This document shows positions 45,448 to 48,719 of a stretch of 64,000 nucleotides of DNA, piece after piece. The DNA is from a bacterium. Lineage in GTDB: Bacteria; Deinococcota; Deinococci; Deinococcales; Deinococcaceae. Under the pieces are notes generated by a model that searched no databases, was not told the origin of the DNA, and saw only the letters and a list, made by a program, of their open reading frames with translations. The stretch is from positions 1 to 64,000 of the forward strand of contig JAJZIR010000012.1 in the NCBI GenBank assembly GCA_021810505.1. The letters run 5' to 3'. The first letter of the stretch is position 1. Each line of letters starts with the position of its first letter. The position numbers and the translations under genes are program-made.

Positions 45448-45972
45448 GTGGGAAACCGGCTGTCCTTGGGGCTCTTCGGCTTAGTGGTCTGGCCGCCCAA
45501 AGAGCTCTCGGCTTGGATCGCCGGGTACCAAAGGCTCACCGGAGCGGTCGGATACGGCCCCCCCCACCTCAACCTGAGGTCTCCCTTCGAGTGGGAGGGC
45601 GAGCCCAGCCAGCTGACCGAAGAGCTGCGCGCCGTCGGCAGCCGTTTGGCTCCCTTTCAGGCCTGCATCTCGGGGTGGCAGCACTTCAGCAACACCATTT
45701 ACTTGGGTGTCGATCTGCAGCCAGAACTGCAGGCCGCCCACCGAGCCACCATGGCGCTCTCGGCGGCCTGCAGCCCGGACCAGCACGGCTACGTCCCCCA
45801 CGTGACCTGCGGCCTGGGAATCTGCAGCTGGGCCATGGAGGATCTCTGGAGGCAGAGCCTGCAGCTCTCCCCGCCCAGACCTAGCTGGCAAGTGCGCAGC
45901 TTCGACCTGACCAGGGAGGTCGGCGGAGAGATCGTCACCATGCTCCGGGTCCAACTGCGCGGAGCTCACTGA
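45448..45972 (+). CDS. 2H phosphoesterase (2'-5' RNA ligase-like)
   Basis: 174 residues. Two H-x-[ST]-like tetrapeptides, PPHLNLRSPF and VPHVTCGLG, spaced as in the 2H superfamily that includes LigT/ThpR; the first has Asn in place of Thr or Ser. GTG start only four bases after the regulator stop, so probably cotranscribed. The 3' end overlaps the convergent GH57 gene by 38 bases. Substrate, RNA or cyclic nucleotide, cannot be told. Confidence 0.8.
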   Translation: MGNRLSLGLFGLVVWPPKELSAWIAGYQRLTGAVGYGPPHLNLRSPFEWEGEPSQLTEELRAVGSRLAPFQACISGWQHFSNTIYLGVDLQPELQAAHRATMALSAACSPDQHGYVPHVTCGLGICSWAMEDLWRQSLQLSPPRPSWQVRSFDLTREVGGEIVTMLRVQLRGAH

Positions 45973-47899
45973 CCCCCAGAGCGGCGACGCGCAGCCGGAA
46001 GGTCAAGCGCCTCGATCTGCCCTTGGGCAGATCGAGATCCCAGACCGGAACGACCGTGTTGGATTGGTAAGCCCGGACCGGCTGGCCATCTTGCCCCTCG
46101 TGCAGCGTGCTGATGGGAAAAGTCCAGACCAGCGCATCCTTGCTCTCGAATTCGAAATAGATGGCCACCCTGAGCCACTCATCGATCAAAGCCAATTGGC
46201 TGATCCTGCGGTGCTCTGCGGTGGCCTCCAAGGTACCGATCCGCTGGCCGTTGGCGACCAGGTAGCGCCCTGCCCCGGGGCCGCTCAGCGAGAGGTTCCA
46301 CTCGCTGGCGAACCGGGTGATCACGTCCCAGTCCCCGTTGTTGGCGATGCGGTACTCGATCAGCAGGGAGCTGTCCTTGGCCTGGAGGGTGACGCTCTTG
46401 CGCAGCTCGACTGCGACCGGTACCCCACCAGGGCCGCGCACCGAGCCCTGCCTGCGCAGGGTGACCCGGTTGCGGTATTTACCCGACTCGAAACGCCCTG
46501 AGACGTAGTCCCCCAGCTCCAGGTACTTGCCCGCCGCGAACTCGGCCAAGGTGGTCTCACCCCCGATAAAGTGATCGACCAGGCAACGGCGCAGGTAGCG
46601 ATCGATGTCGCTCCCGAGGGCAGCCTGGTAGGGCTCGGGTCTCCGGACGAAGCTGTCGGAGAGGTTGACGGCCCTGGGGCGAAAGTCCAGCTCGGTGATG
46701 GCACCACCCTGGCTGGGCTTGAAGTAGGCGTTCATGGTGTGGCTCTCGGCGATGACTTCCTCCTCGCCGTCGGCATCGAAGTCCAGCAAGCGAATCTCCA
46801 GCCAGGAGTACTTGTTCGGCTCGATCAGGTTCTCGGCCTCGATCAGGTTGCGGTAGACCGAGGAGCGCAGGAAGTTGTGGTAACTGCCTCCGCTGCCGTG
46901 GTGCCAGTAGGGGTCCCCGGTCTGCGCCCTCCAGAGATGGATCTTGGCTTGCTGGGGAGTGCGCGGCGAACGGGACAGCTTGGCCGAGACCAAGGCCATC
47001 CGCTTCTGCATATGCGCCACCTCCGGATAACGCACCAGAAAATTCCGCCAGAAGCCGGAGTGGGAGGAGTCGGCCATCAGGGAACTAGCCCGGCCAGCCG
47101 GCTCCGACGCGCTGCAGGGGAGGTACAGGGGAGGAGGCGAAGGGTGAGCGGCCAACCCCTCGCTGGCGGTCATGGTGGCCCAGCCTTCCAGGATCTGGAA
47201 GAGCCGCTCCAGGTAGCCCTCCTGGTAGCTACGCCGGTGAGAGTCCCCCCAGAGGCCCAGGCGCTCTCCGCTCTCCGCCACCACCAGCAGGCCCGGCCAG
47301 GATCTCCAGCGGCTGACCAGCAGGTCCGGCTCCAGGGAGAGCAGGCCTCCGCTGGCCCATCGGGCGATCGGCAGCACGTCGATCCACTTACCCTGGTCCT
47401 CGGTGCGAAAGGGGGTGGTCAGCGCGGACGGCTCGAGGCCGGTGCGCAAGAACTGCTGATCCTCGAGCAGGGCGAAGCGCAGGCCACCGTCCCGCAGCAG
47501 AGCAGGGAAGTGAGGCTCCCAGACGCACTGCGCCAGCCAGCCCCCCGAGGGGGCCGCGCCGAACATGGCCGCGAGCTGCTCGCCGTGCACCCGGATCTGG
47601 GCGACCGCGTCAGCCTGGGGCACCAGGCTCAGTACCGGTTCATACATGCCCCCACCGAGCAGCTCGACTTGGCCGCGCTGGACCAAAGCGTCTAGGTGGG
47701 TGAGGAATTCGGGGTGGTGGAGCTCAGCCCACTCCAGGATCGCCGCCGAGTATCGCAGGGTGACCCGAACCGCTGGGTGCCGATCGAGCAGCTCCAAAAA
47801 GGGAGCGTAAGCCAGGTCATGGGCTCGGACGAAGACCTCGTCGAGATTTCCGACCGGCTGGTGGTTGTGAACGACGATGACGAGCTCAGCTGCAGCCAC
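45935..47899 (-). CDS. GH57-family alpha-glucan protein, catalytic residues apparently lost
   Basis: 654 residues, the length of Thermococcus litoralis 4-alpha-glucanotransferase (659). Family motifs: HNHQP (11-15), GGGMYEPVL (82-90) and DUF1925/1926 C-terminal beta domains. In active enzymes motif 3 is WLTERVW with nucleophile Glu123 and motif 4 has HDDGE with Asp214; here they read WLAQCVWEP (Gln124) and AESGERLG (Ser210). Both catalytic residues therefore look replaced, although the fold is well kept. GTG 47899 is chosen for its GGGAGGGGG site and for placing HNHQP at the usual position; a TATTCT box lies about 60 bases upstream. It could be a glucan-binding or regulatory protein. Confidence 0.85.
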   Translation of the reverse strand: MAAAELVIVVHNHQPVGNLDEVFVRAHDLAYAPFLELLDRHPAVRVTLRYSAAILEWAELHHPEFLTHLDALVQRGQVELLGGGMYEPVLSLVPQADAVAQIRVHGEQLAAMFGAAPSGGWLAQCVWEPHFPALLRDGGLRFALLEDQQFLRTGLEPSALTTPFRTEDQGKWIDVLPIARWASGGLLSLEPDLLVSRWRSWPGLLVVAESGERLGLWGDSHRRSYQEGYLERLFQILEGWATMTASEGLAAHPSPPPLYLPCSASEPAGRASSLMADSSHSGFWRNFLVRYPEVAHMQKRMALVSAKLSRSPRTPQQAKIHLWRAQTGDPYWHHGSGGSYHNFLRSSVYRNLIEAENLIEPNKYSWLEIRLLDFDADGEEEVIAESHTMNAYFKPSQGGAITELDFRPRAVNLSDSFVRRPEPYQAALGSDIDRYLRRCLVDHFIGGETTLAEFAAGKYLELGDYVSGRFESGKYRNRVTLRRQGSVRGPGGVPVAVELRKSVTLQAKDSSLLIEYRIANNGDWDVITRFASEWNLSLSGPGAGRYLVANGQRIGTLEATAEHRRISQLALIDEWLRVAIYFEFESKDALVWTFPISTLHEGQDGQPVRAYQSNTVVPVWDLDLPKGRSRRLTFRLRVAALGVSELRAVGPGAW

Positions 47900-47992
47900 G
47901 AAGGAACCCCCTCCCGCCAGCGCCCAAACGGGCCGCCCGGTCCTAGCCCCTAGAATACGGGTTTTCTCTGCTGAGCTCGGGTGGGCCAAGCC

Positions 47993-48649
47993 TCAGCGCT
48001 GACCCAAATCGGCCCAGGACCCAGACCCTAAGAGGTCCCGGACCGGGGCCACGCTGCGGCGGTGGACCGGGCTGGGGCCGCAGTCAGCCAGAGCCGCCCG
48101 GTGGGAAGCGGTGCCATAACCCTTGTGGCGCTCGAAGCCGTAGCCGGGATAGAGGCCAGCCAAGTCCACCATGGCGGCGTCACGGAGCACCTTAGCCAAG
48201 ATGCTGGCCGCCGCCACCGAGGCCGAGCTGCGGTCCGCCCCGGCCGGGCAGCGCAGTGGCCAGGGGACCGAGAGCGGCAGGTAATCGGTGATAACGGCCT
48301 GGGGGAGGGGATCGAGCAGCTGCAGGGCCAGCAAGCTGGCCGCCTTGGTGGCTACCAGCAGGCCGAGCCGGTCCACCTCGGCGGCAGGAATTGCCACCGC
48401 CGACCAGGTCAGCGCCTGGCGGGCCAGCAGCTCAGCCAGGTGCTGGCGGCGAGCCTGGCTGAGCTGCTTAGAGTCGCGGTATGGCCAGTCCCGCTCCCCA
48501 GCGGGCAAGATCACGGCCGCTGCGACCACCGGCCCGGCCCAGGCCCCCCGGCCGACCTCGTCGACCCCAGCAACCCGCTGGTAGCCAGCCCCCCAGCACT
48601 GCCGTTCCAGCGCGAGCAGATCTCCCGCCCGAGGCAGCGACTTGGTCAT
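47993..48649 (-). CDS. rnhB: Ribonuclease HII
   Basis: 218 residues from the ATG at 48649. Removes RNA from RNA-DNA hybrids and single ribonucleotides. Catalytic motif VAGVDEVGRGAWAGPVVAAAVIL holds Asp30-Glu31; further acidic residues in DRSSASVAAASILAKVLRD and the KGYGTASHRAALADCGPSPVHRRS tail are typical. I prefer 48649 over 48706 because TATGAT sits six bases upstream and the conserved part begins soon after. Confidence 0.94.
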   Translation of the reverse strand: MTKSLPRAGDLLALERQCWGAGYQRVAGVDEVGRGAWAGPVVAAAVILPAGERDWPYRDSKQLSQARRQHLAELLARQALTWSAVAIPAAEVDRLGLLVATKAASLLALQLLDPLPQAVITDYLPLSVPWPLRCPAGADRSSASVAAASILAKVLRDAAMVDLAGLYPGYGFERHKGYGTASHRAALADCGPSPVHRRSVAPVRDLLGSGSWADLGQR

Positions 48650-48655
48650 TGAGGC

Positions 48656-48661
48656 ATCATA
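48656..48661 (-). promoter_or_regulatory. -10 box of leaderless rnhB promoter (TATGAT, 6 bases before ATG)
   Basis: TATGAT on the minus strand; lies only five bases from the TAGAAT box of the divergent superoxide dismutase promoter. Confidence 0.6.
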
Positions 48662-48666
48662 GGGGT

Positions 48667-48704
48667 TAGAATAGGATCTGCACGGGACGGACCGTTCATC
48701 CGTC
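48667..48704 (+). promoter_or_regulatory. Promoter -10 and leader hairpin of sodA
   Basis: TAGAAT (48667-48672) or TAGGAT (48672-48677) can act as -10 box. The leader then contains a 6-bp hairpin GACGGA/TCCGTC (48686-48704) before the AGGAGGG ribosome site. Confidence 0.5.
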
Positions 48705-48719
48705 ACCCAGGAGGGATGT

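Follow-up and report, generated by a model that had tools for sequence, protein, structure and literature searches.

According to the main text of the 2018 study by Martinovicova and Janecek (PMC6037648), GH57 enzymes carry a nucleophile Glu on strand β-4 and an acid/base Asp on strand β-7. In the 4-α-glucanotransferase (4AGT) of Thermococcus litoralis (TLGT) these residues are Glu123 and Asp214, as established by crystallography and mutagenesis (PMC5347038). The same 2018 text defines "4-alpha-glucanotransferase-like" GH57 proteins with incomplete catalytic residues, the published set comprising 63 sequences (PMC6037648). Here we analysed a GH57-like protein of a Deinococcaceae bacterium in which both residues are replaced; the whole stretch of DNA studied, 64,000 nucleotides long, is referred to as the window.

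The gene, its predicted fold and the replaced catalytic residues

The gene for the 4-α-glucanotransferase-like protein lies at positions 45935 to 47899 of the minus strand, a strand not stated in the first-pass annotation, and was identified from its translation, Pfam domains, PDB homology, Shine-Dalgarno sequence and GC3. Translation from the GTG start at 47899 gave 654 codons (654 aa) with no stop and no frameshift, and the plus strand over the same interval carries stops in the same frame. A strong Shine-Dalgarno-like GGGAGGGGG (47907 to 47915, minus strand) was read 7 bases before the GTG, and the GC content by codon position (67/47/84 %) is similar to that of the neighbouring genes. Directly upstream lies rnhB (RNase HII; 47993 to 48706, minus strand). 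A gene for a 2'-5' RNA ligase-like (2H) protein is convergent on the plus strand (45448 to 45972), overlapping the 3' end of the GH57-like gene by 38 bases. No plasmid match was found, and no NCBIfam model matched.

The three Pfam domains were found in the expected order, all above their curated cut-offs: the GH57 barrel (PF03065; 47351 to 47839; 85 bits against a cut-off of 21), whose match ends before the β-7 region, the middle helical domain (PF09094; 46826 to 47056; 77 against 27), where the CSR-5 sequence RAQTGDPYW is kept, and the C-terminal β-sandwich (PF09095; 46007 to 46783; 156 against 22), all on the minus strand, as are the features that follow. No second PF09095 protein was found in the window genome. 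The HNHQP motif (CSR-1; 47855 to 47869), GGGMYEPVL and the full length are all present, as the first-pass annotation had stated. Glu79 of CSR-2 (47663 to 47665) is invariant in 10/10 aligned Deinococcota homologues and in TLGT, and the DFDADG loop (D373, D375, D377 and G378; 46766 to 46783) is invariant in all homologues, the most eroded included; judging from its sequence, this DxDxDG motif resembles a calcium-binding loop. The AlphaFold (AF2) model covers the full length in three domains (pLDDT 83.7, pTM 0.84), with seven barrel strands at residues 5-12, 46-50, 78-80, 119-121, 142-146, 171-178 and 204-210. The predicted fold is a (β/α)7 barrel followed by a helical bundle and a C-terminal β-sandwich, and a structure search with the model returned 1K1X/1K1W at the top (TM 0.80-0.85), other GH57 enzymes scoring far lower.

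A phmmer search of the PDB gave TLGT (1K1W) as the sole match (E 1e-76), and in this alignment Gln124 faces Glu123 and Ser210 faces Asp214 within ungapped motif blocks. The same pairing was obtained with MAFFT in an alignment with nine relatives; neither method places Glu or Asp at these positions, which upholds the first-pass reading of the two sites. Codon reading gave CAG for Gln124 (47528 to 47530) and AGC for Ser210 (47270 to 47272). The AF2 model is in agreement with the alignments, with Gln124 just after barrel strand 4 and Ser210 at the end of strand 7. Arg213 falls at logo position 23, where 4AGT has Lys; by our own count of the CSRs against the main text of PMC6037648, this position is K217 in TLGT.

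Misalignment was ruled out, since the two methods concur and close relatives retain both residues, within WLAERV and GEDGEKFG in two homologues of the same family. The change from Glu to Gln takes one base and adjoins an Arg to Cys replacement, and that from Asp to Ser takes two (AGC versus GAC); no single sequencing error accounts for three base changes in two codons together with the neighbouring Arg to Cys, and such an error was judged unlikely. With both essential residues replaced, transferase or hydrolase catalysis has very likely been lost, and the non-hydrolytic protein proposed earlier would be the natural conclusion when fold and length are kept. Several residues of the groove are retained (in the numbering of the window protein, H11, H13, Q14, E79, W121, E212, W217, D329, Y331 and W332).

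Homologues and constraint across Deinococcota

Among 111 Deinococcota genomes searched, a homologue is present in 12 or 13, with a patchy distribution. A scan of genome contigs gave no match with the single window protein as query; with an alignment as query, all matches were in Deinococcota. Two proteins from the window's own family (f1; genomes G001 and G002) are 52-53% identical to the window protein, and the identity of its middle and C-terminal domains to these intact sisters is 57-63%. Neither of the two has the replacements of the window protein, as both keep Glu and Asp. In G001 the intact gene has rnhB upstream on one side, two genes away, and the Mrp-HTH-2H block, which in the window includes the 2H gene, on the other. 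Because G001 shares both flanks, orthology between the window gene and the gene of an apparently active enzyme is very probable.

Outside this family the catalytic residues are eroded in different ways. In family f5, the proteins of G015, G007 and G011 have the Glu and lack the Asp motif, and in that of G019 Asp takes the place of the Glu and the Asp motif is likewise missing. In family f3, the G005 protein keeps Glu without the Asp motif, and the g16 proteins have lost both catalytic residues and are reduced to about half a barrel, although their second half is modelled confidently, with pLDDT at about 90 beyond residue 270. The Asp region is gapped in the f5 and f3 proteins, so that for these the claim extends only to the absence of the motif. 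Eroded homologues are maintained through whole genera, and the gene is absent from families f2 and f4. GH38-type α-mannosidases encoded in the same genomes (G000:C26 is an example; length about 1,000 aa) show a weak barrel likeness (about 27%), and the Pfam GH38 N-domain matches the window protein weakly, but unlike the window protein they have no PF09095 match and form a separate family.

On the tree, whose outgroup is one archaeal sequence and whose rooting is weak, the minimum number of Glu losses is three. For Asp the unrooted minimum is one change, because a weak branch (61/57) joins the intact sisters with TLGT; constraining the window protein with its own family members was not rejected (AU p 0.12), and the Asp losses would then number at least two.

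The first-pass annotation had noted good conservation apart from the two losses, a description that fits the middle and C-terminal domains and less so the barrel. Sites conserved in G001, G002 and TLGT are changed in the window protein at 26/84 barrel positions versus 6/81 in the other domains (p 0.0001), from which constraint on the catalytic domain appears to have been released. The ratio of the window branch to the intact sisters is 1.65 for the barrel, 1.39 for the middle domain and 1.99 for the C-terminal domain. As the branch is lengthened in every domain, acceleration of the barrel only is not supported, and these comparisons indicate relaxation at functional sites of the barrel along a branch that is fast overall; given that branch, general relaxation of the window gene is also possible. 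Selective protection of the pocket was not found, with 6/24 CSR pocket positions changed versus 21/66 other invariant barrel positions (p 0.61), so that the groove enjoys no special protection. The columns that stay invariant down to the most eroded proteins are found mostly in the middle domain and at the start of the β-sandwich (DxDxDG, KYxWLE, the ESHTMN region, GG, KYR and RR), joined by Glu79 in the barrel.

The surroundings of the gene differ among families. In f3 and in G019 a gene for a CPBP/Rce1-like protein (PF02517; ~190 aa, a putative membrane protease) adjoins or overlaps the eroded GH57-like gene, which it follows at four loci (L087:9007-11497, L093:8650-10562, L091:8424-10840 and L098:577-2494). 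The next gene after it is that of isocitrate dehydrogenase in f3, and that of an 803 aa WD40-repeat protein in G019 (L091:5954-8362). In G007 and G011 (L089:7062-14156 and L090), a divergent LacI regulator and a sugar ABC transporter lie beside the GH57-like gene, with an apparent electron-transfer flavoprotein pair (by eye, in G007) on the other flank. No CPBP homologue was found in f1, the window genome included; a CPBP partner was rejected for the window protein, which this link cannot account for.

Possible roles of the window protein

The window genome encodes a GH77 amylomaltase, a GT5 synthase, a GT35 phosphorylase and several GH13 proteins, so that transferase activity is covered, and with the GH77 MalQ present the loss of this transferase is tolerable. 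No GH77, GT5 or GT35 was found in the genomes of g16 or in that of G005, which is 99% complete in one contig. GH13 is represented by just one protein each in G005 and G024, presumably a member of the sucrose/glucosylglycerate phosphorylase group. The eroded homologues of G005 and g16 seem not to serve the usual (GH77/GT5/GT35) glycogen pathway, and their occurrence in such genomes speaks against an obligatory link with glycogen.

We weighed four explanations, and our first choice, held tentatively and a little short of an even chance, is a glucan-binding or regulatory remnant of a GH57 4-α-glucanotransferase without covalent catalysis. An active GH57 enzyme at the same genomic locus would be the ancestor, its nucleophile (E to Q) and acid/base (D to S) having been replaced and the loss tolerated via the GH77 amylomaltase. 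The product would be a full-length, folded pseudoenzyme that may act through a residual α-glucan groove and the conserved middle/β-sandwich core; it could, for instance, serve α-glucan metabolism as a binding or regulatory partner. The His, Trp, Asp and Glu residues still present in the groove are compatible with glucan binding, although they do not prove selection for it. The earlier suggestion of recruitment to glucan binding or sensing accordingly stands in that most pocket residues remain, but not in any preferential conservation, the pocket being kept no better than the rest of the barrel. The latter result, the fast window branch in all domains and the degenerate copies where GH77, GT5 and GT35 are absent count against a remnant of this kind, and a binding or regulatory role taken alone is weakly supported.

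The clustering of invariant columns in the second half of the protein (DxDxDG, KYxWLE, ESHTMN, KYR and RR) points to a different possibility, less probable than the first, in which the selected function is a non-glucan one residing in the middle/β-sandwich core, the barrel is a leftover eroded lineage by lineage, and the adjacent CPBP-type membrane protein might be the partner in the two families that have it. The half barrel and confident second half of the g16 proteins, the missing glycogen genes of G005 and g16 and the CPBP gene beside or overlapping the homologue in f3 and G019 agree with this. For the window protein such a function sits poorly with a barrel that is full length and confidently folded in the model and with the lack of a CPBP homologue in f1; moreover, the middle and C-terminal domains are conserved also in the presumably active G001 and G002 proteins, and f2 and f4 do without the gene altogether.

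The patchy distribution, the changes across the barrel on a fast branch and the GH77 of the window genome would also fit a decaying relic, made redundant by MalQ and drifting without function to loss after its active site was lost. We consider this unlikely, given 654 codons free of stops and frameshifts, the strength of the GC3 signal, the good Shine-Dalgarno sequence, the identity of the middle and C-terminal domains to the intact sisters, the confident full-length model and the persistence of eroded homologues through whole genera. Least likely, finally, is continued enzymatic function, with other carboxylates close to the site (E209 and E212, which adjoin S210) taking over or with a different reaction being catalysed: aberrant catalytic sets can work, as in the GH13 protein BmaN1, which lacks one triad member and is still active on starch (PMC5347038), but BmaN1 lost the transition-state stabiliser only, the window protein lost both essential residues, and E209 and E212 are not new replacements since intact relatives have both.

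For the phylum as a whole we also considered that the GH57 transferase became non-catalytic several times independently, with a retained, glycogen-independent function in the middle/β-sandwich core; eroded copies persisting without glycogen synthase, phosphorylase and amylomaltase speak for it, and we regard it as rather doubtful. Were the eroded copies indeed to function without glycogen metabolism, automatic annotation as 4-α-glucanotransferase would be misleading.

Comparison with TLGT and the 4AGT-like group

The window protein, whether as the remnant we tentatively prefer or otherwise, resembles TLGT (1K1W/1K1X/1K1Y) in its three-domain architecture, its length, its HNHQP motif and its model. 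TLGT residues E79, W120, E216, W221, D354 and Y356-W357 have equivalents in the window protein, which differs at the catalytic positions (E123 to Q and D214 to S) and at R124 (to C), K217 (to R) and F218 (to L).

In both the PDB sequence and structure rankings its nearest GH57 specificity is 4AGT, and it shares with the 4AGT-like proteins, as described in the main text of PMC6037648, a bacterial origin, 4AGT as the nearest specificity and the replacement of one or both catalytic residues. The main text does not mention Deinococcota by name, and the window protein is placed in the group by the group's description. Catalytically dead 4AGT-like GH57 proteins are an already recognised kind: the suggestion that this one may be new does not extend to its type, defined in 2018, and the protein is an added member. 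To that kind the present analysis adds a natural series from enzyme to non-enzyme within one phylum, running from intact proteins (G001, G002) through the full-length double replacement of the window to shortened barrels in two other families, and the persistence of eroded copies without the standard glycogen genes.
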